Virus record (IMG/VR): IMGVR_UViG_3300031825_000064
Coordinates: 1-24,838 of that record
DNA from: a virus
Length of the DNA: 24,838 nt
Direction: 5' to 3' (one strand)
The position numbers and the translations under genes were made by a program. The notes beneath the pieces were generated by a model, which did no database searches, was not told the origin of the DNA, and saw only the letters and a list, made by a program, of their open reading frames with translations. Below, piece after piece: positions 3,382-24,838 of this stretch (its first letter is position 1; every line of letters starts with the position of its first letter).

Positions 3382-3933
3382 ATGAATAACCGGCAACGCG
3401 TCTTTGTGGAGGAATACCTTAAGTGCTGGAATGCGTCTGAGGCAGCCCGCCGCGCCGGTTATTCAGAAAAGGGCCTTCGCCAGACTGCACATAAATTACT
3501 GACAAGGGCTGACATTTCCGCGGAAATAACCCAGCATTTGAAAGAGTTGCAGATTGGGGCCGATGAGGTGCTGGTGCGTCTGACGGAGCAAGCGCGCGGA
3601 AGCATGGCCGACTTTATCAACCCGAAGACCGGCACGATTGACCTGGTCAAGGCTGAGAAAGCCGGCAAGCTGCAACTGATCAAGAGCTTTAGGCGTTCTA
3701 CTGGCAAGACCCGGATGGTTAGCGTGGAGCTCTATGATGCTCAGGCTGCGCTTGTGCAGCTTGGCAAGCATCTAAAGCTGTTCAGCGAAGAGGTGCAACA
3801 CACGGGTGAGCTGACGATCCGATATGTCAATAACTGGCGAAATACTACTGCCGATGCCACACCCGGGCCAGATGTCCGTGATGAGACGGGCGAAACGGTT
3901 CAACCTGCTGAGGGCGGGCAGAAGGTGGCGTAA
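3382..3933 (+). CDS. terS: Terminase small subunit
   Basis: This 183-residue protein carries the Terminase_2-type N-terminal pattern: RQRVFVEEYLKCWNASEAAR, AGYSEKG and LLTRADISAEI, a helix-turn-helix DNA-binding region at about residues 4-50. The family recognises phage DNA and regulates the large subunit during packaging. The C-terminus (about 140-183) is polar and probably disordered apart from a GELTIRYVNNW strand typical of relatives. Its last 110 nt overlap the large subunit gene in another frame. It begins 30 nt after the lysin gene behind a modest AGGA Shine-Dalgarno. Confidence 0.85.
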   Translation: MNNRQRVFVEEYLKCWNASEAARRAGYSEKGLRQTAHKLLTRADISAEITQHLKELQIGADEVLVRLTEQARGSMADFINPKTGTIDLVKAEKAGKLQLIKSFRRSTGKTRMVSVELYDAQAALVQLGKHLKLFSEEVQHTGELTIRYVNNWRNTTADATPGPDVRDETGETVQPAEGGQKVA

Positions 3934-5077
3934 GACGACGATGTGCATGTCTATCTGCCTGGAATCGTTATTGGACCCGGCTACGCGCTCTCCGGAGGTT
4001 ATCTGGGCGTCGCCGACCTACGATCAGTCGCGCACGGCGATGGAGGAAACGCGCCGCGCAGTCGGCAACAATGGCATCTTCAACGAGAGCCGGATGAGCT
4101 GTGTCCTCCCCAATGGGGGGCGCGTCGTGTATCGCTCGCTGGATAAGCTGGATACACTGCGGTCCAAAACTGCCGGCGGTGTCGTAATCGACGAGGCGCC
4201 GTTCACCGACGGGCGCGCCTGGCATGAGGTCGTGCGCCCAACGCTGATCGATACCGGCGGATGGGCGTGGCTGATCGGCACTCCAAAAGGACGCAATTGG
4301 TACTGGCAGGAATGGGAGAATGCGCAATCCCGTCTGGATTGGGCGCGTTTCCACGCTCCGACGCTGGGTGTTGAGATTACCGAACGCGGCCTCGTGCGCA
4401 AGCCGCATCCCCTGGAGAATCCACACATCCCCTTTGCTGAGATTTTGGACTTATACAACACAATCCCGGAACGCGCCTTCCGGCAAGAGATCCTGGCTGA
4501 GTTCGTTGACGATGGCGGTGGAGTGTTTCGGCGCGTGCGCAAGGCGGCAACTGCGGTGCGCCAGGACGCGCCGGTGGACGGGCACCGCTACGTGTTCGGA
4601 GTGGATTGGGGACGCAGTAATGACTATACGGTTATCTGTGTCATTGACGTAAATCTGCAGGCGTGCGTGCATATTGAGCGCTTCAATCAGATTGACTACG
4701 TGGTCCAGCGTGGCCGGCTGAGAGTGCTGTATGAACGCTTTAAGCCCATCATCATCATGGCGGAGCTCAATTCCATCGGACAGCCTATCGTCGAACAGCT
4801 ACAGCGCGATGGATTGCCGGTGCGCGGTTTTACAACGACGATGGCGACAAAGATGGAAATCATTGAGGCGCTGGCGCTGGGCTTTGAGCAGAGCAGGATC
4901 AAGATATTACTGGACGAGATTCTGATTGGTGAATTGCAGGCCTACGAACAAGAGCGCCTGGCATCGGGAGTGCGATATAGCGCGCCCGCGGGAATGCACG
5001 ATGACTGCGTGATGAGCCTGGCACTGGCCTGGAGTATCGGGCGGAATTTGACTGGCACAGGAGGCGGGTGGGGATAA
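3824..5077 (+). CDS. terL: Terminase large subunit (packaging ATPase-nuclease)
   Basis: At 417 residues this is full length for a compact TerL. HPGQ (13-16) is the adenine-recognition motif, GRRWRKTT (32-39) the Walker A region, VVIDEAP (120-126, D123/E124) the Walker B, and IGTPKG the coupling motif. The RNase H-fold nuclease shows D261 in GVDWG, E314 in MAELN and D393/D394 in HDDCV. The Walker A position just before the lysine, nearly always Gly, is Arg36 here. The ATG at 3824 is chosen because the HPGQ motif must be included; it puts 110 nt inside terS. The Shine-Dalgarno is weak, so coupling to terS translation is likely. Confidence 0.9.
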   Translation: MSITGEILLPMPHPGQMSVMRRAKRFNLLRAGRRWRKTTMCMSICLESLLDPATRSPEVIWASPTYDQSRTAMEETRRAVGNNGIFNESRMSCVLPNGGRVVYRSLDKLDTLRSKTAGGVVIDEAPFTDGRAWHEVVRPTLIDTGGWAWLIGTPKGRNWYWQEWENAQSRLDWARFHAPTLGVEITERGLVRKPHPLENPHIPFAEILDLYNTIPERAFRQEILAEFVDDGGGVFRRVRKAATAVRQDAPVDGHRYVFGVDWGRSNDYTVICVIDVNLQACVHIERFNQIDYVVQRGRLRVLYERFKPIIIMAELNSIGQPIVEQLQRDGLPVRGFTTTMATKMEIIEALALGFEQSRIKILLDEILIGELQAYEQERLASGVRYSAPAGMHDDCVMSLALAWSIGRNLTGTGGGWG

Positions 5078-5078
5078 T

Positions 5079-7115
5079 ATGAACAAACTACAGCAGTGGT
5101 TAGCAGGTGCGCTGGGGATCGCCGCGAAGGCCGAGGTCCCGCTGAGCCGGGTACGCTGGAGCGCGTATGGCACGCATGCGGGGAGTGATGCCAACAAGTT
5201 CAGCGATACGCCGGCCGGCTGGATCAACGCCGCGCACGCCAACGTCTGGGCGCGCAATAGCATCCGCGCGCGCGCCTCGGCAGTTGCCCAGACGCCGATG
5301 CGCCTGTATCAGTATGACGAAAAGACGGGCGAAGAGACGGAAGTAACCGAGCATGAGGTGCTGGACCTGCTCGAGAAGGTAAACCCGATCAACTCGAATA
5401 AGTCCTCATTCCGCAGGATGATCGAAACACAACTCTCGATTCATGGCGATTGCATCGTCGTCAAAGTGCGCGGGCTGGAGAGGGTGCGCGAGCTATACGT
5501 GCTCCCGCGCCAGCTCTGCATCCCCGAGCCGGACGATAATAAATTTATCGCCGGCTATCGCTGGCTGGTGACCGGCGAACTGATCCCGCCGGAGAATGTC
5601 ATCCGCTTCTGGTACCCCAGCCCGGACGGCTCCATCGATGCGGAGTCGCCCACTTCCACGGCACTGCGCTATATCAATCCGTACGGCGTGGCGGACATCT
5701 CAGCAGAAGCCATCGACCGGCGTGGCGGACAGGGTGGGGGCATTGTCAGTTACGACGCGCTGTCAAACAACATCGACATCGAGCGCATGAAGTCCGAGTG
5801 GGAACGCAAATACTCGGATCCGCGCAACGCCGGCGTTGACAAACACATGCCACCCGGAACGCGCTACGAATCCGGTGCGCTCACGGCCCAGCAAATGCAG
5901 CGCGAGGAACGCATGATGCGCCTGGCGCACAACATCATGGCGTGTTACTTCGTCCCGCCCGCGAATGCCGGCGATATGAGCGATGCGTCTGTACTGGCCA
6001 ACGCCGCGATGCAATCCAAGACGTTCTGGGAATTGTTCGCTTTGGATGAGTTGGACTTTGTCGCCGAGGTATTCAACAATGAACTGCTGTGGCGTGAATG
6101 GCCGGGATCATACGAGAGCGGGCTGTATTTCAAACACGATGTGAGCCAGGTCGCTGCACTCAGCGAGGACGCAGACGCCAAGATGAATCGCGCCGTCGTT
6201 GGCGTACAAGGGAGCATTATCTCGATCAACGAGGGGCGCGATCTGATTGGGATGGAGCCGGTGGAGGACGATCCCCAGGCCGACCAGGTCACGTTTACGG
6301 TGGAGCAGAAGCCACAATCTACACCGGGAGCGGGCGAGCTGATAGCGCCGGAAGTTCCATCCGCGAAGGCGTTTCCCATGGAGCAACGCAACGGCGTCAT
6401 GATCGGCTTCTTCTTGAGCACTCACGACGCGCGGCGCATTGTGCCGGCAGACAATGAACTGCCGCCCAACGCGCGCCGAGAAGAAACATTACACCTGACA
6501 CTGGCATTCCTGGGCAAGATACAGGACCTTGAGCCTCAGAGGCAGGAAATCACGAGTGTTGTTGACACATTTGCGGCATCCCACAGCCCGATGGCTGGAC
6601 ACGTCCAGGGGATCGGTAAGTTCAACGGGGTAGAGGACGGCGAGTCTGATTGTATTTATGCCTCGTATGATGCAGTGAACCTGGCTCAATTCAGGACTGA
6701 GCTGGTGGCCGCGCTGGCCAGTGCCGGCATTCCGGTGGCGATGGATCACGGCTTCGTGCCGCATATCGCGCTGGCGTACATCCCTCGATCAGACGCCATA
6801 CCGGACATGACGATGCCTGACGCGCCAATGACATTCGCAGCGCTTACCCTGACATGGGGTAACGAGCACCATGTGGTGCCGTTGAGCGCAGGCCACCCTG
6901 TTCCTGCGGCGGATGCCACATTACCAGTCATAGACTTTGTTGGGATGAAGGCGCTCACGCCGGATGGGGCAGGGCAGATCGAGTCGATCCATCGTTTCGG
7001 TGAACATGGCGGGTTGACGGCGACTAAGGCGGCGCCGGTGGTGATCGTTGCCGGTAAGGCATATCCTGCCGGCAGCGTCAAGGTGGTGCTTACGGAGGTG
7101 ACAAATGGCGAGTAG
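5079..7115 (+). CDS. Portal protein fused to a 2H phosphoesterase (LigT-like) domain
   Basis: This 678-residue protein starts 2 nt after the terL stop. Residues about 1-430 look like an HK97-type portal: WARNSIRARASAVAQTPMRLY, HGDCIVVKV, a polar stem region and IISINEGRDLIGMEPV at the end. Portals form the dodecameric DNA channel at one capsid vertex. Residues about 440-590 form a separate domain with two 2H motifs, H472-L-T474 in HLTLAFLG and H562-I-A564 in HIALAY, spaced as in LigT/2'-5' phosphodiesterases. The second motif has Ala where Thr or Ser is usual. Residues about 620-678 form a small beta-rich tail domain of unknown type. Single unbroken frame; the fusion is unusual and would place the enzyme in the virion. 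Confidence 0.85.
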   Translation: MNKLQQWLAGALGIAAKAEVPLSRVRWSAYGTHAGSDANKFSDTPAGWINAAHANVWARNSIRARASAVAQTPMRLYQYDEKTGEETEVTEHEVLDLLEKVNPINSNKSSFRRMIETQLSIHGDCIVVKVRGLERVRELYVLPRQLCIPEPDDNKFIAGYRWLVTGELIPPENVIRFWYPSPDGSIDAESPTSTALRYINPYGVADISAEAIDRRGGQGGGIVSYDALSNNIDIERMKSEWERKYSDPRNAGVDKHMPPGTRYESGALTAQQMQREERMMRLAHNIMACYFVPPANAGDMSDASVLANAAMQSKTFWELFALDELDFVAEVFNNELLWREWPGSYESGLYFKHDVSQVAALSEDADAKMNRAVVGVQGSIISINEGRDLIGMEPVEDDPQADQVTFTVEQKPQSTPGAGELIAPEVPSAKAFPMEQRNGVMIGFFLSTHDARRIVPADNELPPNARREETLHLTLAFLGKIQDLEPQRQEITSVVDTFAASHSPMAGHVQGIGKFNGVEDGESDCIYASYDAVNLAQFRTELVAALASAGIPVAMDHGFVPHIALAYIPRSDAIPDMTMPDAPMTFAALTLTWGNEHHVVPLSAGHPVPAADATLPVIDFVGMKALTPDGAGQIESIHRFGEHGGLTATKAAPVVIVAGKAYPAGSVKVVLTEVTNGE

Positions 7116-7680
7116 TGTGAAACTGATCACGATAGAATCTGCGAAACTGCAGGGGGTCAATGGACGTCTGCGTAAGGTTCCTGAAGAATTGTCGCGCATC
7201 GCCACGCGTGAATTCAGGACGTTTGGGCGTGGCATGGTGGAGGAGTTGAAGCGCGAGGCGCCGTTCGTATCCGGCGAGACAGCGAACTCCATTCGCTTTG
7301 CCGTGCGCAATGCCGACACGCGCAATGTGCGCCTGGAAATCACAGCCGGCAACAAGAACCGCCCGCCGGTCATCATCAACACGATCCTGAACGGTTCCAG
7401 GCCGCATACCATCACGGCGAAGCGGCCCTGGCTGCCCACCAAACACGGCCTGATCCCTATGCTGCTCTTCCGCCGCTCTGCGGGAAACGGTGCGCCATCT
7501 GCGCCGGTAGGCAGCCGTGGCGCCGCCGGCGAGTGGGTGATGACGAAATCTGTGCGGCACCCGGGCACCAAGCCCAACGATTTCTTCAACCGGGCGCTCA
7601 ATACGATGCAGCCGACGCTGGACAATATGCTGACGCGCATCGGGAAGTTAGTGATCGAGACATTCCAGACGAAACAGTAG
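7105..7680 (+). CDS. HK97 gp10-like head-tail connector/neck protein
   Basis: This 191-residue protein resembles the HK97 gp10 family (phage neck/tail-completion proteins): an N-terminal helix region, then LKREAPFVSGETANSIRFAV, and PGTKPNDFFNRAL near the C-terminus, the usual family ending. The ATG at 7105 has a GGAGGTGA Shine-Dalgarno and overlaps the portal gene by 11 nt. Such genes usually follow the capsid gene; here it sits between portal and protease-capsid. It is followed directly by a strong promoter-like sequence. Confidence 0.75.
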   Translation: MASSVKLITIESAKLQGVNGRLRKVPEELSRIATREFRTFGRGMVEELKREAPFVSGETANSIRFAVRNADTRNVRLEITAGNKNRPPVIINTILNGSRPHTITAKRPWLPTKHGLIPMLLFRRSAGNGAPSAPVGSRGAAGEWVMTKSVRHPGTKPNDFFNRALNTMQPTLDNMLTRIGKLVIETFQTKQ

Positions 7681-7682
7681 GA

Positions 7683-7711
7683 TTGACAATCCGGCGCATC
7701 CGTTCTAGTAT
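7683..7711 (+). promoter_or_regulatory. Strong sigma70-like promoter before protease-capsid gene
   Basis: TTGACA (7683-7688) is a perfect -35 box, followed by exactly 17 bp and TAGTAT (7706-7711), 5 of 6 matches to the -10 box. It begins two bases after the connector stop codon. Transcription would start near 7718, at the first base of the sequence block shared with 438-512. A dedicated promoter for the capsid fits the high capsid copy number. Confidence 0.7.
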
Positions 7712-7718
7712 TTGTCTG

Positions 7719-7794
7719 TAACCGAATATCCGGTCGAACTCAGTCTCACGAGCGGCCGCTCTCTGATTTAGAGAGTGGCCGCTTTTTTATTGTC
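7719..7794 (+). ncRNA. Structured leader/short RNA element, copy 2, with hairpin and U-tract
   Basis: This is the second copy of the element at 438-512. ACCG (7721-7724) pairs with CGGT (7731-7734) around the same AATATC loop. A 13-bp stem (7752-7764 with 7770-7782) contains one G-U pair and has loop GATTT, the reverse complement of copy 1's loop AAATC. TTTTTT follows, and the capsid-gene ATG lies only a few bases later at 7795. Any capsid mRNA must therefore carry this hairpin in its leader, so simple termination cannot be its only role. Attenuation or mRNA stabilisation are possible. Confidence 0.7.
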
Positions 7795-9609
7795 ATGGAC
7801 ACGCCAGTAACCGAAACCGATCCGCAACTCGATACCATCTCCGTCAAGGCCGCCGGCGATACCACGCTGGATGTGCTGGGCGCACCGTATGGGATGGATA
7901 AGCGCGGCCAGGAGTTCACCCCCCAGACGGATTTCGGAGACCTGCCCATCATCCCGGTGATCTATTACCACGGCTGGGGCGTAGATGACGGCGAACGCAT
8001 TGGCTGGGCCTACAAGGCGCAGCGTGATAACGCCGGCCAGTGGTATCGCGCCGAACTGGATCCGGCTAACCCGCGCACCCAGAAGCTGATTGCCGATGCC
8101 CGCGCCGGAAAAGTTCGGGCGTCCAGTGATGCGATTTCGCACCTGGTGCGGCCTGCTGAGGCACTCAAAGGTCTGGGCGGCAAGATCGCTCGCTGGGTGA
8201 TCGGCGCACTGTCACTGATGGATAGCGCCACGTATGAGCACGCCATTAACCCGCGCGCCATCGCGCTGCCGGCGGTGCGCGCATATTACGAGCAGTTGTT
8301 TAACGGTTTGAACGAAGAGACTTCGGGCGAGGCAGAGGCCGTCAAAGCCGGGGCCGTGTTTGCGAGGCGCAACCGCGACCGTATCCAGCAGATGAAGGCC
8401 ATGCTTGACGAACTGTTATCGGAGTTCCCCGTAGATGAAGCAAATTCTAATGACCCTGCCACGCAGGGAGGAACGAAAGCAATGGAACCGAATACTACGC
8501 CCGAAGTCACGCCGCCGGCGGTAACACCCCCGGTAACTCCCCCGCCCGCTGCGCCGGTGGATATCCACGCACAGGTCGAAGCGGCTGTGAAAGCTGAGTT
8601 GGATAAGCGCCTGGTCGAGTTGAATCGTCCAAAGTTCGGCGCGCCGGCCGCCAAGGCCGACATGAGCGTTGACGAGTTGGCCGTGAAAGCCTTCAGCCAG
8701 TACCTGCGCACCGGCAAGGACGACCTTTACGAAGAATGGGCCGTCAAGGCCGCGCTCAACGAGGGCACGACCTCGCAGGGCGGCTACCTGGTGCCCACCA
8801 AGTACAGCAATGAGCTGGTGAAGCCGCTCACGCTGGGCAGCATCCTGCGCGCGGCCGGGGCCCGGGTGATCCCCGTGGACGGCACGAACAGCTTCAAGGT
8901 GCCAACCCTCACGAATAGCACCAAGGCGATTCTCACCGCCGAGGCGACCAACTATAACGAGGTGGAACCCACCGTCGGGGAAGTCACTGTGACGCCATGG
9001 AAGTACACCAAACTGGTGAAGACGTCCGAGGAACTGCTGGCTGATAGCCGCATACCGGTTGAAGCGATGGTGACGGATGATGCGGCTAACGCGTTTGTAT
9101 TGGCCGAGAACGACGCCTTCACCGTCGGCGCCGGCACGACCGCGCCGCAAGGCATCACCGTGGGCGCCACGCAGGGCGTGACCGCCGCCGGCACCAGTGC
9201 GATCACCGCCGAGGAAATCATCGACCTGTACCACGCCGTCCCGCAACAGTACCGCGACCGTGCGACGTGGTTGATGAAGGACTCCACGCTGAAGCTGATC
9301 CGCAAATTACGCGAAAACGGTACGACCGGCGCGTTCCTGTGGCAGCCCGCCATCTCCGCCGGGCAACCCGAGACGATCCTGGGACGACCCGTGTACACCT
9401 GCCCGGACATGCCGGCTGCGACGACCGGCAATGCCGCCATCGTGTTCGGTGATCTGACGTACTACTGGATCTTCGATTTCGGCCAGCCGTTCGTCCAGCG
9501 CCTGAACGAGCTGTACGCGGCCACCGGCCAGATCGGTATCCGTTGGTTCCGGCGTTTCGATGCGCACGTCATGCTGGCCACCGCCATCCAGAAGCTGGTG
9601 ATGGCGTAA
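7795..9609 (+). CDS. Prohead protease-major capsid fusion (HK97 fold)
   Basis: This 604-residue protein joins two head proteins. Residues about 15-175 resemble the HK97 prohead protease: VLGAPYGMDKRGQEF, H59 in YYHGW, S110/S111 in VRASSDAIS, and VIGALSLMDSATYEHA. A Pro/Thr-rich linker lies at about 230-256, followed by a charged delta-like helix. Residues about 285-604 are an HK97-type capsid: EGTTSQGGYLVPTKYSNELV, LTAEATNYNEVEPT, TWLMKDSTLKLIRKLRE, GRPVYTCPDMP, and a C-terminal FRRFDAHVML. The ATG at 7795 has no Shine-Dalgarno but includes the whole protease fold. An internal in-frame ATG at 8482 may make capsid alone. Confidence 0.85.
   Translation: MDTPVTETDPQLDTISVKAAGDTTLDVLGAPYGMDKRGQEFTPQTDFGDLPIIPVIYYHGWGVDDGERIGWAYKAQRDNAGQWYRAELDPANPRTQKLIADARAGKVRASSDAISHLVRPAEALKGLGGKIARWVIGALSLMDSATYEHAINPRAIALPAVRAYYEQLFNGLNEETSGEAEAVKAGAVFARRNRDRIQQMKAMLDELLSEFPVDEANSNDPATQGGTKAMEPNTTPEVTPPAVTPPVTPPPAAPVDIHAQVEAAVKAELDKRLVELNRPKFGAPAAKADMSVDELAVKAFSQYLRTGKDDLYEEWAVKAALNEGTTSQGGYLVPTKYSNELVKPLTLGSILRAAGARVIPVDGTNSFKVPTLTNSTKAILTAEATNYNEVEPTVGEVTVTPWKYTKLVKTSEELLADSRIPVEAMVTDDAANAFVLAENDAFTVGAGTTAPQGITVGATQGVTAAGTSAITAEEIIDLYHAVPQQYRDRATWLMKDSTLKLIRKLRENGTTGAFLWQPAISAGQPETILGRPVYTCPDMPAATTGNAAIVFGDLTYYWIFDFGQPFVQRLNELYAATGQIGIRWFRRFDAHVMLATAIQKLVMA
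8482..9609 (+). CDS. Nested major capsid protein from probable internal start
   Basis: Inside the protease-capsid frame, GGAGG at 8467-8471 precedes an in-frame ATG at 8482. This is a better ribosome site than the one at the gene's outer start. The product would be 375 residues, beginning MEPNTTPEV at the linker between protease and capsid parts, which is the natural place to separate them. It would allow many capsid subunits per protease fusion, as in other phages with nested head genes. The 10-nt spacing is slightly long. Internal initiation is inferred from sequence only. Confidence 0.5.
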   Translation: MEPNTTPEVTPPAVTPPVTPPPAAPVDIHAQVEAAVKAELDKRLVELNRPKFGAPAAKADMSVDELAVKAFSQYLRTGKDDLYEEWAVKAALNEGTTSQGGYLVPTKYSNELVKPLTLGSILRAAGARVIPVDGTNSFKVPTLTNSTKAILTAEATNYNEVEPTVGEVTVTPWKYTKLVKTSEELLADSRIPVEAMVTDDAANAFVLAENDAFTVGAGTTAPQGITVGATQGVTAAGTSAITAEEIIDLYHAVPQQYRDRATWLMKDSTLKLIRKLRENGTTGAFLWQPAISAGQPETILGRPVYTCPDMPAATTGNAAIVFGDLTYYWIFDFGQPFVQRLNELYAATGQIGIRWFRRFDAHVMLATAIQKLVMA

Positions 9610-10216: not shown

Positions 10217-10495
10217 ATGCCGAAATTCAGGAAACGCCCAGTAGTGATCGAGGCCGAACAGTTTGATGGAACAGTGGCATGCGCAATCAGGATTGAGGCG
10301 TGGGCTAATGATGGGCGCGTAGGACACATATTTGCTGACAGGGATACAAGCGAACGCGCCATCATGCTCATTGCTACCCTTGAGGGAAATATGGAGGGGC
10401 GGCCACAGGACTGGATCATCAAGGGCGTGAATGGTGAGTTCTATCCGTGCAAGGCAGATATTTTCGAGAAGACATACGAGGCTGTGGCTGAATGA
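10217..10495 (+). CDS. Small conserved phage protein of unknown function
   Basis: This 92-residue protein begins KFRKRPVVIEAEQFDG and ends DWIIKGVNGEFYPCKADIFEKTYE, a pattern I recognise from many phage hypothetical proteins. The biochemical role of that group is unknown to me. It is soluble, with no membrane segment. It starts behind AGAGGT, 8 nt after the connector gene, and its TGA overlaps the next gene's ATG (ATGA). It opens the accessory cassette that separates head from tail genes. Confidence 0.7.
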   Translation: MPKFRKRPVVIEAEQFDGTVACAIRIEAWANDGRVGHIFADRDTSERAIMLIATLEGNMEGRPQDWIIKGVNGEFYPCKADIFEKTYEAVAE

Positions 10496-11205
10496 ACACA
10501 CGTCTGAATCCGACCGTCAATGGATTGCCACATCTGGGACACGCCTATCTGGCGCTGGTGAACCAACACGAGGCACATTCAACCGGCGGAACATTTGATC
10601 TGCGGTTCGATGACTACCAGGGGCGCTGGTTGAAAGATGTCGGCGAAGCGAAGATGCGCGAATACGCGGCGGGGTGGTTGGAGGATTTTGAGTGGCTGGG
10701 CATCAAGGCGGACCGCGTGATCTATGAATCGGAGATTCATGATTACGTTGAAAGCCGCGTTGGGCTGGCGTTCCCTGGCCTAAAAGACCCATACGAGGTG
10801 GCCGGAACGCCCGTTCTCATCCGCGAGGATTCACCTCAGTATCCATACGTGCCATATCTCACGGCAACGATTGCCTTTATGGACCACATGGAGGGAATTG
10901 ACACGCTAATCTGTGGCGACGAGCTACTGAGTCGGTACGCGTTGTACTGCTGGATGAGCGAAAAGATGGGACTGCCGATTATGAAGCATGTCTTCATGCC
11001 CCGGTTACGCGGCAATGGTGAACTGGATACGGTGAGCAAGACAGCGGGGACGTACAAGATTCGGACGTTCCGTAAGCGTGGTTATTCGCCTGAAATGGTT
11101 CGCACAATGTTGGCCTATGCCTGTTTGAAAGACCCGCACGGCCAATGGGCGGTAAGCAACATTAGGCCACAGCCGAGATTAGTGGGGACAGAGGGCGCAT
11201 GTTAA
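10492..11205 (+). CDS. Stand-alone glutamyl-tRNA synthetase-like catalytic domain
   Basis: This 237-residue protein matches the class I GluRS/GlnRS catalytic core. TRLNPTVNGLPHLGH carries the HIGH signature (H14-L-G-H17). GGTFDLRFDD parallels the FxLRIEDTD segment, YLTATIAFMDHMEGIDTLICGDELL the amino-acid site region, and VSKTAG (V181-T184) the KMSKS loop, followed by RKRGYSPEMVRTML. It ends there: no anticodon-binding domain and no CxC zinc motif of the Glu-Q-tRNA(Asp) synthetases (about 300 aa). It may activate an amino acid for a tRNA or for another acceptor. ATP-binding motifs look intact; substrate and acceptor are unknown. The 4-bp overlap with the previous gene implies coupled translation. 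Confidence 0.75.
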   Translation: MNTRLNPTVNGLPHLGHAYLALVNQHEAHSTGGTFDLRFDDYQGRWLKDVGEAKMREYAAGWLEDFEWLGIKADRVIYESEIHDYVESRVGLAFPGLKDPYEVAGTPVLIREDSPQYPYVPYLTATIAFMDHMEGIDTLICGDELLSRYALYCWMSEKMGLPIMKHVFMPRLRGNGELDTVSKTAGTYKIRTFRKRGYSPEMVRTMLAYACLKDPHGQWAVSNIRPQPRLVGTEGAC

Positions 11206-11439: not shown

Positions 11440-12495
11440 ATGAGCTTCCTGCATGACGACGAATACAACATCATCATGGATATCCCGGCCACCGGCCCGA
11501 ACCCCAACGCACCGGACCAGATTGCGCGCGCCATTCCCCTGGATGACCTGAAGCGCCTGCGCGATGCCGGCGCGCAAACCGTGCTGGAATTTGTCTCATG
11601 GCGTAGGGTCGAGCCACAGGCTGGCGTGTACGACTGGTCGTTCAGCGACGAGCAGGTGTCGCGTTGTATGGCTGCCGGCATGAAGGTGTTGATCATGGCG
11701 CCCAATGACGTGCCGGCGTACTTCCCGGATGACTGGTATGTGAAGGCCTGCGACGGCACGGTGATGCGCGAGCGCCACTCAGCGAACCTGGTGCAGTCCT
11801 GGTCATGTCTGTCGCCGTGGAATGTTGATGCGCAGTTGCGCCAGAACGATTTTATTGAGCGGTTGTGTGAGCGCTACAACGGCAATGATTCGCTATGCAT
11901 CTTCTCCCATAGCCAGGAGGGCGAATCGCTGCTTCCGCCGGCGGCATACGCGATGTTTGATGACCATGCAATCGCCTCGTATCGCAAATACGCGGGCGAC
12001 AAAATGGCGCTCCCAAATCCCAAGGCATTCGCAACGCAGCGTTGGCTCTATGAGTCACTCCTGCCGGTCGTGGTTACGCAGCAGACGATCTATTGCCGGA
12101 TGCACCCGGCACATGAGTGTTGGCTGAGTCTGCACCCCGTGTACACCAGCTGGCCGGGCAGTGGAGTGCATGACATCTACAGCTATTTCGCGGAAGTGAT
12201 GGACATGATTCAGCCAAGGACACTGAACTGGTTGATCTTCAGCTGGTTCTCATCTGACTTCCAGCAGCGCTTTGGGGCGATGGCGCAGGCGATCCGCAGG
12301 ATGGGCGTCAACATCATTACAGGTTCCGAGTGGTCACAAGGGCTGATCGATAACACGCCCAAGGCAATTCAGAGCGGTTTCCGCGCTTTATTGACGGCGC
12401 CTCTACATCCGTACCTGGCAAAAGAAGCGGTTGAGCCGTGGGAGTTTGATGCTTTCCGCGCCAGCCATCAGCAGTTTATGGAGGCAAACGCTTGA
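11440..12495 (+). CDS. TIM-barrel glycoside hydrolase-like protein
   Basis: This 351-residue protein has the layout of clan GH-A-like beta/alpha barrels. The hallmark is AGAQTVLEFVSWRRVEPQAGVYDWSF (about 46-72), the second-strand signature, followed by GMKVLIMAPNDVPAYFPDDW. Candidate catalytic acids are E160/E162 in HSQEGES and E297 in ITGSEWSQGL, at positions fitting strands 4 and 7. There is no signal peptide or membrane segment. The ATG at 11440 has only a weak GGTGG Shine-Dalgarno. Its stop overlaps the next start by 4 nt, so it is probably coupled to the glycosyltransferase gene. Substrate unknown; a capsule, host glycan or virion glycan are options. Confidence 0.55.
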   Translation: MSFLHDDEYNIIMDIPATGPNPNAPDQIARAIPLDDLKRLRDAGAQTVLEFVSWRRVEPQAGVYDWSFSDEQVSRCMAAGMKVLIMAPNDVPAYFPDDWYVKACDGTVMRERHSANLVQSWSCLSPWNVDAQLRQNDFIERLCERYNGNDSLCIFSHSQEGESLLPPAAYAMFDDHAIASYRKYAGDKMALPNPKAFATQRWLYESLLPVVVTQQTIYCRMHPAHECWLSLHPVYTSWPGSGVHDIYSYFAEVMDMIQPRTLNWLIFSWFSSDFQQRFGAMAQAIRRMGVNIITGSEWSQGLIDNTPKAIQSGFRALLTAPLHPYLAKEAVEPWEFDAFRASHQQFMEANA

Positions 12496-13253
12496 GCATT
12501 TACTGGGCGATGCTGCTGGAGCGCAGCGTTGATAACGAGGTGGTCGCGAATGTGATGGATATCGCCGGCGTGTGCGCGGTGGCCGGGTACATTCGCATTC
12601 CGATGTCCTATACCCGCACCGACCAGGCGCGCAACAACATCGTCGATGTGTTTCTGAAGCACTCCAGGGGCGACGATGACGTGCTGGTGATGCTGGATAA
12701 CGACCACATGATGCCGCGTGACGTGGTCGTGCGCCTGGCCAGCCAGGTAGATGCTACGCACGAGATTGTTGGTGCCCTGGCGTTCCGGCGCAGCCTGCCG
12801 CATGACCCGTGCTTCTTTATCCGCTCGCCGGATGGCAATGGGTTTGACGTGACGACCCACTTCACCAACGGCCTGATGCAGTGCATGTGTGTCGGAACCG
12901 GCGCTATCGCGATTCGCAAGAGCGCATTGCTGAAGCTCCAGGTGGCCGGCACGAAGCGGCTGTTCTTCCGCTACAGCTACAACGAAGCGAGCGAGGTCCA
13001 GCGCAGTGAGGATTTCGAGTTCGGCGTGCTGTGTGAGAAAGCCGGCATCCCGCACTGGGTGGACACGTCGTTCTATATCCCGCACCAGACGCGCAAGTAC
13101 GTGGGGCCGGAGGATTTCTACGCGGTCCTGAAGGAGGCGAACGATGAGCCAGATAAAACAAACGCTCGCTACGCTCGCATCGGCCTCCGTTTTAGCCGGG
13201 ACGATTCCGGTGACGGGGCTAGCGCTCAGCACGTTGAAGCAGTCAACGCATAG
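12492..13253 (+). CDS. GT-A (family 2-like) glycosyltransferase
   Basis: This 253-residue protein shows GT-A features: VLVMLDNDHMMP with D69-N-D71 as the DxD metal/nucleotide-sugar site, VGTGAIAIRKSAL, and QRSEDFEFGVLCEKAG (E173/D174) as the acceptor/catalytic-base region, ending near a conserved IPHQ. It should transfer a sugar from a nucleotide-sugar donor. It begins with TTG, supported by GGAGG at 12480-12484 at 7-nt spacing and by the TTGA overlap with the glycosidase-like gene. Its last 110 nt run through the start of the tail gene in another frame, so the final 36 residues may be a non-conserved extension. Confidence 0.7.
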   Translation: MSIYWAMLLERSVDNEVVANVMDIAGVCAVAGYIRIPMSYTRTDQARNNIVDVFLKHSRGDDDVLVMLDNDHMMPRDVVVRLASQVDATHEIVGALAFRRSLPHDPCFFIRSPDGNGFDVTTHFTNGLMQCMCVGTGAIAIRKSALLKLQVAGTKRLFFRYSYNEASEVQRSEDFEFGVLCEKAGIPHWVDTSFYIPHQTRKYVGPEDFYAVLKEANDEPDKTNARYARIGLRFSRDDSGDGASAQHVEAVNA

Positions 13254-23218: not shown

Positions 23219-24838
23219 TTATGCGGTCCGTTCGATCAACCATTCCACATCTTCAGGCCAAGATTGTAGCCGTCGCTCACCGGGGGCACTATTGGCCTGA
23301 AAGATGGCCTCAGTGCGAGCGTACAACCGGTACGCAAATACTATTTCACCCCAGGCCTGCTGTGCCCATGGCCTGAGGTGGAACCGACTAATCTCCCCCA
23401 TGTCACTAAACTCGATCTTCTCAAACAGCTTGCTGAGGGCTTTCTTCTTATTGATGTCGCGCATTTGCTTTATGGCACTGGAAAGATCGTTCAGGTTATT
23501 CATGAGCTTATCGACATCATCCTCGCGTACCAACTCGGACTGAGCGACCCTGAGTGCTCGCTCCAGCTCAGCATAACGGGTGTTGTAATGCTCGCGTTGT
23601 ACCTGGCCAGATAGCAATAAGTCCATCAACACTTCCATCTGCCGGCTAAAGGTATCGATATCACGTCGCGCTTTCAGCTTGCGCTCATCTCCGACGCGCT
23701 CGGCCACTGAGCGTCGAATCATGTCGCGCATCTCCGGCGGAAACTGAATGCCGGCCATGTGCTGGATGATCTCGGTATCGGCGCGGTCACCATCGATATA
23801 GGGCCCCGAGCGACGGCTACGGTAATAATGCAGACCATGACTGACGTCGGCCCGCAGGCGGACATCGCCCCAATATGCAATCGGCGTTAATAATGCAACC
23901 CATTCAGTTGCCTTCCGGCCGACCAGCTGGTTTTTGAACCGCCTCTCGATGACGGCGCAGGCCTGCATCTCGTCGATCAACGGTTCAATCGCTGGACCGC
24001 GTTGGGCGTGCATTGCAGTCGCGTATCGCTGAAGGTAGGTACCCTCGCCGTGCAGAATGATGCGGGCGTTCTTCGAGCGGAAGCGTTGACCCACAATCGC
24101 ATAGCCTGCGTAGAAGAGCACATTCCCTACAATACTTCGAATAACCTCGCGGCTAAAGCGCTTAGGGAGATGGTCGCGCCCTTCATGTCGCATTTGCTGA
24201 TCGTTCGCCTTGATCGCCACAGCGTCATAGGATAGACCAGCGGAATACCAGGTCAGGATCGACCGAACTGTGTTGCCATGCTTATCGTGTGGCACATAAT
24301 ACGCATCCTGCCCCTTCCCGCCTCGCTTCATGCCAAAAGGACACATCCCCCATGGCAGCATCAATTTATCGCGGAAGTAGGCAGACGTCTGTTTCATCAG
24401 GTCTGAGGTATTGTCGCTCTGGTACTGAGCTACCATGGCGCGTGAGTTAATATCCAGAATCGCCGAAGCGGTAAAGCCGGTGCGGTCAGTATCGATCCCA
24501 TCCCAGCAGGTCACGAATCGTTTATTGCTTTCCTTGCAGGTGTCCACCAGTTCGCCGATCTCTCGCACGCTGCGTGCCGACCGGTCGATCATGAAGACGA
24601 CCAGGAATCTGCACTCGGGGTGCTTGAGCGCCTCTTTCAGTCGCACCCAGTCGGGGCGATTGTGCGTAGTGCGCCCAGAGCGATGTCCGCCGGCGTCCTC
24701 GTAGATGGTGAACTTGGTCGCGCCGATCTCGGCCGCCTTGGCGTTTACCGCGTCTCGCTGTTTTTCAATACTAATGGTTTCGCGTTCGCGTCCCTTGCGG
24801 ATTTTTGATCGTCGCAAGTATCCGACGCCTTCGTAGTC
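23219..24838 (-). CDS. Large serine recombinase/integrase, 5' end beyond window
   Basis: At least 539 codons are visible. The reading frame is open to the right edge, where it reads YEGVGYLRRSKIRKGR. The Ser of RRS (codon 24808-24806) is the likely nucleophile. SIEKQRDAV, FMIDRSARSVREI and DINSRAMVAQYQSDNTSDLMK complete the catalytic domain, followed by the recombinase domain (YVPHDKHGNTVRSIL; IRSIVGNVLFYAGY). The zinc-ribbon region (about 23790-23890) keeps its pattern but lacks cysteines. A coiled coil (EDDVDKLMNNLNDLSSAIKQM) lies near the end. It should integrate or excise the phage at short att sites. A TTG at 24817 is not the natural start. Confidence 0.88.
   Translation of the reverse strand, partial: DYEGVGYLRRSKIRKGRERETISIEKQRDAVNAKAAEIGATKFTIYEDAGGHRSGRTTHNRPDWVRLKEALKHPECRFLVVFMIDRSARSVREIGELVDTCKESNKRFVTCWDGIDTDRTGFTASAILDINSRAMVAQYQSDNTSDLMKQTSAYFRDKLMLPWGMCPFGMKRGGKGQDAYYVPHDKHGNTVRSILTWYSAGLSYDAVAIKANDQQMRHEGRDHLPKRFSREVIRSIVGNVLFYAGYAIVGQRFRSKNARIILHGEGTYLQRYATAMHAQRGPAIEPLIDEMQACAVIERRFKNQLVGRKATEWVALLTPIAYWGDVRLRADVSHGLHYYRSRRSGPYIDGDRADTEIIQHMAGIQFPPEMRDMIRRSVAERVGDERKLKARRDIDTFSRQMEVLMDLLLSGQVQREHYNTRYAELERALRVAQSELVREDDVDKLMNNLNDLSSAIKQMRDINKKKALSKLFEKIEFSDMGEISRFHLRPWAQQAWGEIVFAYRLYARTEAIFQANSAPGERRLQSWPEDVEWLIERTA

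Follow-up and report, generated by a model that had tools for sequence, protein, structure and literature searches.

The portal protein of the virus analysed here carries a 2H phosphoesterase domain at its C-terminal end, and domains of the same kind are joined to several different head proteins in other phages. Because Iyer et al. already described such proteins in 2017 and 2022, this one is a member of a published class of 2H fusions, one among dozens. The 2017 paper described 2H domains fused to MuF or portal proteins and proposed that they act as RNases or else degrade nucleotides used in defence (PMC5512222); the 2022 paper took the fusions to suggest that the enzymes are packaged and injected to counter immunity based on nucleotides (PMC9503650). 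A "phage phosphoesterase" published in EMBO Rep in 2025 was rejected as a relative, being a metallophosphoesterase and not a 2H protein. The present protein adds one member to the class, and the survey built around it shows how frequent the fusion is, how many head proteins serve as partners, and which residue might give a hint on the substrate.

Results

A portal and a 2H domain in one open reading frame

The window, meaning the whole 24,838-base stretch analysed, is a complete virus record of its own (IMGVR_UViG_3300031825_000064). A single ORF at 5079–7115 (+), open over 678 codons and thus encoding 678 amino acids, holds both the portal and the 2H domain (Table 1). Above the curated Pfam cut-offs, it matched Phage_portal (PF04860; residues 59–390, E = 1.4e-38), 2_5_RNA_ligase2 (PF13563; residues 460–574, E = 7.8e-9) and LigT_PEase (PF02834; residues 463–515, E = 6.4e-7). 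Among the PHROGs, two portal families, phrog_2662 and phrog_12, also matched the portal half, and residues 438–614 matched phrog_14859, labelled "RNA ligase" (E = 4e-23). Terminase genes (3382–5077) and neck and capsid genes (7105–9609), identified with Pfam and PHROGs, flank the ORF; its PF04860 profile, its portal fold and these head-gene neighbours mark it as an HK97-type portal.

Table 1. Positions of the parts of the portal-2H gene in the window
Feature	Position	Strand	Basis
HK97-type portal part, residues ~41–396	5199..6266	+	PF04860; full-length model resembles GTA and HK97 portals
Disordered linker, residues 397–434 (38 residues)	6267..6380	+	pLDDT <50 in full-length model; 33% identity to L018
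2H phosphoesterase domain, residues ~435–605	6381..6893	+	PF13563 and PF02834; AlphaFold, Foldseek
Motif 1, H472-L-T474, start of core strand	6492..6500	+	HxT in 84/84 relatives; strand begins at 472
Motif 2, H562-I-A564, codons CAT ATC GCG	6762..6770	+	Strand begins at 562; Ala in window only
Y567, motif-2 His+5, LigT Arg130 position	6777..6779	+	Tyr in 82/84 relatives
C-terminal region, residues 606–678	6894..7112	+	51% identity to L018; low model confidence

The fusion recurs in L018, an independent IMG/VR contig whose protein has portal, 2H domain and the same C-terminal region and is 46% identical over 663 amino acids; it is therefore not an accident of assembly. Between the two proteins identity was lowest in the linker (33%) and otherwise 47% (portal), 52% (2H domain) and 51% (C-terminal part, the last 75 residues); no Pfam family matched this C-terminal region (606–678). 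The 678 open codons, the Pfam matches to both parts and the L018 ortholog thus confirm the first-pass annotation, made from the letters of this DNA, in its reading of a portal and a 2H domain in one unbroken frame.

Several other genes of the window were also recognised. The capsid ORF (7795–9609, +; 604 amino acids) has a capsid fold from about residue 261, and its N-terminal part, which no Pfam or PHROG family matched, has the look of a prohead protease by eye. Among the head-tail genes lies a 237-amino-acid ORF (10492–11205, +) with a catalytic region like that of GluRS, GlnRS and GluQRS (PF00749, E = 5e-21), whose best NCBIfam match, over residues 3–82, scored far under the equivalog cut-offs. 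A GH42/GH35-like glycosidase ORF and then a possible glycosyltransferase ORF occupy 11440–13253 (+). A large serine recombinase (PF00239) is encoded at 23219–24817 (−), which suggests from its sequence that the phage is temperate. No tRNA or tmRNA was found in the window.

The predicted structure consists of two ordered units

The 2H domain was modelled by AlphaFold2 with 84 aligned sequences; pLDDT was mostly 90–98, and the core strands began at both motif histidines. When this model was compared with the PDB by Foldseek, the best match was the CPDase of D. radiodurans (E = 9e-9), followed by T. thermophilus TT0787, E. coli LigT, Usb1, rotavirus VP3 and AKAP18. The domain has the duplicated, two-lobed fold of the 2H superfamily, as seen in the model and in its matches to LigT, CPDase, Usb1 and AKAP18, and the structural comparison that had been proposed as a check on the 2H assignment put CPDase first and then LigT. 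Because the fold matches known 2H proteins, we infer that the two motif histidines face each other.

In the full-length model the portal, which matched GTA and HK97 portals, and the 2H domain formed two ordered units with residues 397–434 disordered between them. The portal had earlier been drawn at about residues 1–430; its N-terminal position stands, but order ends near residue 396 and the remainder of that span is disordered. As modelled, the protein is a 2H phosphoesterase hung on the portal C-terminus by a flexible tether.

The active site is conserved, with one change private to the window

Both motifs, H472-x-T474 and H562-x-A564, lie at the positions that had been given for them; of the two H-x-(T/S) motifs, both histidines and the first threonine are present, and the second threonine is replaced by alanine. 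In the alignment of 84 head-type 2H domains, motif 1 was HxT in all 84, the motif-2 histidine was present in 83, and threonine or serine followed it in 82. Since the search patterns cover the motifs, the check on them was limited to rows found only via the other motif, and among these motif 1 was kept in 38 of 38 and motif 2 in 30 of 32. The aligned sequences thus show a putative active site that is conserved across the head-type family.

Alanine at the second Thr/Ser position occurred in the window alone among the 84, Ser or Cys being found there in other relatives, and the L018 ortholog has an intact second motif (PHIT). This lone alanine could mean that the window domain has lost its catalytic activity, wholly or in part, and has been kept as a structural or binding module, a reading that overlaps the others considered below. 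We regard it as improbable, as both histidines are retained, identity to L018 is no lower in the 2H domain (52%) than in the portal (47%), Ser or Cys occurs at the same position in other relatives, and the alanine could be a one-base sequencing error. No further contig with the motif-2 DNA of the window was found against which Ala564 could be checked. The caution voiced earlier, that this residue might alter or abolish catalysis, is apt for the window copy, whose full activity is uncertain, but it says little about the family, because the alanine is private to this contig (1 of 84). Judged from the alignment, the recognition of Ala564 as a window-private change is new in this analysis.

The 2H domain is joined to several kinds of head protein

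Relatives were sought with the 2H alignment (A2), and loci were found by patterns covering motifs 1 and 2. From IMG/VR this search yielded 247 relatives, 80 of them retained for analysis; the 75 loci that it picked up in species genomes were mostly LigT-like genes. The full-length protein, scanned directly against both collections, gave no relative in either. Thirty-eight ORFs consisting of a long N-terminal region plus a 2H domain were selected, and 2_5_RNA_ligase2 matched every one. By Pfam, with counts that could overlap, their partners were PF04860 (20 of 38), Portal_Mu (4), Phage_portal_3 (1), SPP1_portal (1) and MuF (6). The further portal-2H fusions for which a search had been suggested are therefore many, up to six having other portal families in addition to the 20 with PF04860. 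Portals missed by Pfam were found with PHROGs in L026, L035, L073, L091 and L032. Single members of the 38 (A3) also matched an intein, a PI3/PI4 kinase and an ADP-ribosyltransferase family.

The range of architectures was wide. A 1162-amino-acid ORF (L048:2370-5858) joined the 2H domain to a major head protein (PHROGs), an Anaerolineae MAG (L098) had the order portal-2H-MuF, two Deinococcus plasmids carried a Mu-type portal with 2H, and a Streptomyces phage had MuF-2H. In Arthrobacter and Microbacterium phages, 2H and an XkdF-type protease formed one protein, encoded directly after the portal and MuF genes; the XkdF assignments rest on Pfam, a custom XkdF profile having been ignored as contaminated by 2H sequence. 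In Gordonia phage GMA6 (L003:3662-5751), a free 2H gene was preceded by a portal-MuF gene and followed immediately by an ADP-ribosyltransferase gene.

On the 2H tree, whose deep branches are weak, the label portal, other or alone needs at least 17 changes. In HK97-like heads each of the fusion partners is located within the procapsid or at least points one end into it, and by analogy the partners in these phages would share that location. The repeated changes of label and the variety of head proteins suit packaging better than a task specific to the portal, the same domain being joined to different head proteins.

A tyrosine replaces the phosphate-binding arginine of LigT

Five residues after the motif-2 histidine (His+5), at a position outside all search patterns, 82 of the 84 head-type domains have Tyr, whereas 60 of the 62 bacterial ThpR/LigT-like proteins from the genome scan have Arg. 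In E. coli LigT this residue, Arg130, binds the product phosphate (PMC5283653). The second motif of T4 Acb1, YTPHITLSY, likewise has Tyr at His+5, and the HxT/HxT chemistry of Acb1 has been established (PMC9117128). The replacement of the LigT arginine by Tyr across the family, as far as the alignment reveals it, is new in this analysis and may serve as a hint on the substrate.

Despite this tyrosine, the overall profile of the family is closest to LigT/CPDase. Plain membership in LigT was rejected for the window protein, which has Tyr567 in place of Arg and scored 32.2 bits against the TIGR02258 equivalog cut-off (NCBIfam) of 65.7. Plain membership in Acb1 was rejected as well, since the Acb1 profile PF23474 did not match the window; it weakly matched 31 of the 84 relatives (best E = 1e-5).

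These comparisons bear on whether the domain is an RNA-end enzyme, that is, a LigT/CPDase-like 2',3'-cyclic phosphodiesterase or Usb1-like RNase acting on host or phage RNA, such as tRNAs cut by anticodon nucleases. CPDase and LigT are the best fold and profile matches, Usb1 was also found, and an RNase role is one option favoured by Iyer et al. 2017 (PMC5512222). However, the product-binding Arg130 of LigT is Tyr throughout the family, neither an RNA ligase nor a kinase gene turned up among the window genes that were scanned, and the same authors never saw this 2H type with RNA ligases. We consider an RNA-end role rather unlikely.

Acb1 domains sit at the corresponding position of PF06381 portals

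When the PDB was searched with T4 Acb1, the cyanophage Pam3 portal matched weakly (8hds; E = 0.06). By Pfam, this portal (L194:1013-2878) consists of PF06381 at residues 40–388 and Acb1 (PF23474) at residues 471–616 (E = 5e-29). The same layout was found in Rhizobium phage RHph_I72, Pseudomonas phage phiPSA1, Synechococcus phage Yong-M2-251 and Aminobacter phage Erebus, with Acb1 E-values of 2e-22 to 2e-43, and His+5 in these five Acb1-portals was Tyr or Leu and in none Arg. By these profile matches, a true Acb1 domain occupies on PF06381 portals the place that the 2H domain takes in the window. A literature search of limited reach found no relevant publication on an Acb1-portal fusion; these fusions, which include cultured phages, are new in this analysis and may already be described elsewhere.

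Discussion

Portals have about twelve subunits, are made late and remain with the particle; their C-terminus is normally at the crown, within the capsid. An enzyme fused to the portal would enter the procapsid in fixed number, as would those of relatives in which MuF, a prohead protease or a capsid protein is the partner. In the window protein the 2H domain would hang from the portal crown into the capsid lumen in about twelve copies; by analogy with other portals, the tethered domain probably faces the lumen. Because the portal stays with the particle and its C-terminus is inside the capsid, entry into a new host would require release of the domain, for instance by a cut in the 38-residue linker, followed by ejection; no cleavage site was identified in that linker. 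The domain would then hydrolyse a nucleotide signal, or a phosphodiester akin to one, that a defence system of the host produces, either in the new host or, alternatively, in the cell that produces the virions.

We prefer this counter-defence role, in either cell, to an RNA-end role, and give it about an even chance; the producing-cell and inactive-copy readings overlap both. In its favour are, as judged from the sequences, Tyr at His+5 as in T4 Acb1 instead of the phosphate-binding Arg of LigT, retention of both motifs over 84 relatives and of the fusion in an ortholog at 46% identity, the 2H fold, the variety of head proteins to which the domain is joined, and prior publication of the same role. 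The idea is strengthened by the true Acb1 domains on other portals. Against it, the overall profile and fold place the domain closer to LigT/CPDase than to Acb1, the second Thr is replaced by Ala in the window copy, and a domain tied to a portal has no obvious way into a new host unless cleaved, portals moreover being late proteins.

The enzyme might instead be confined to the producing cell and never delivered; while still attached to unassembled portal, or to portal within procapsids, it would counter defences that are late or sense head assembly. A release mechanism is not evident, the portal is made late, and for related enzymes Iyer et al. 2022 raise the countering of immunity directed at the packaging apparatus (PMC9503650). 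On the other side, injection has been proposed for related MuF-fused enzymes, and the length, disorder and poor conservation of the linker are as expected of a cleavable tether. Action confined to the producing cell, which overlaps the preferred reading, is possible but on the unlikely side. The first-pass annotation had proposed an anti-defence or RNA-processing enzyme packaged with the virion and "ready before any phage gene is expressed". Its nucleotide-signal idea, helped by the Acb1-portals, is now the leading guess, but ready-made delivery is unsupported as stated, since a tethered domain that probably faces the lumen would need release and could equally act in the producing cell.

A broader proposal, which we put forward tentatively and think doubtful as a whole, is that the portal C-terminus acquired an Acb1 clade (in PF06381 portals) and, independently, a Tyr-signature clade (in portals of PF04860 and other families) because some virions carry signal-degrading enzymes as standard, freed by a cut in the linker and active before phage genes are read. 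If virion-borne 2H enzymes do destroy nucleotide alarms, counter-defence would start with the particle itself. As the Pam3 portal with its Acb1 domain is already in the PDB, a direct test is possible.

Comparison with known systems

The portal and MuF fusions of Iyer et al. (PMC5512222, PMC9503650) share with the window protein a 2H domain on a phage portal, and packaging with a counter-defence or RNase role was proposed for them; both papers mention the class briefly, and the motif-2 alanine is the window's own feature. The LigT/ThpR proteins (PF13563/PF02834; drCPDase, E. coli LigT) are its best fold and profile match, but the window domain differs in Tyr for Arg130, Ala for the second Thr, a score below the cut-off and its attachment to a portal. 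Acb1 (T4 gp57B; PF23474) also has the 2H fold, and T4 Acb1 fits the second motif [FY]-x-PH-[IV]-x-[LIF]-x-Y, whereas the window domain is not matched by PF23474, is larger, and sits on a PF04860 and not a PF06381 portal. The closest 2H domains in named phages, at about 27–32% identity, belong to the 2H-XkdF proteins of Arthrobacter phages Salgado, Kovu and Ottawa (phrog_14859), whose gene has a similar head-gene setting just after the portal and MuF genes, but whose partner is a protease and not a portal and whose second HxT is intact. In Pam3 and its relatives, as in the window, the enzyme is C-terminal to a portal and carried on a linker.
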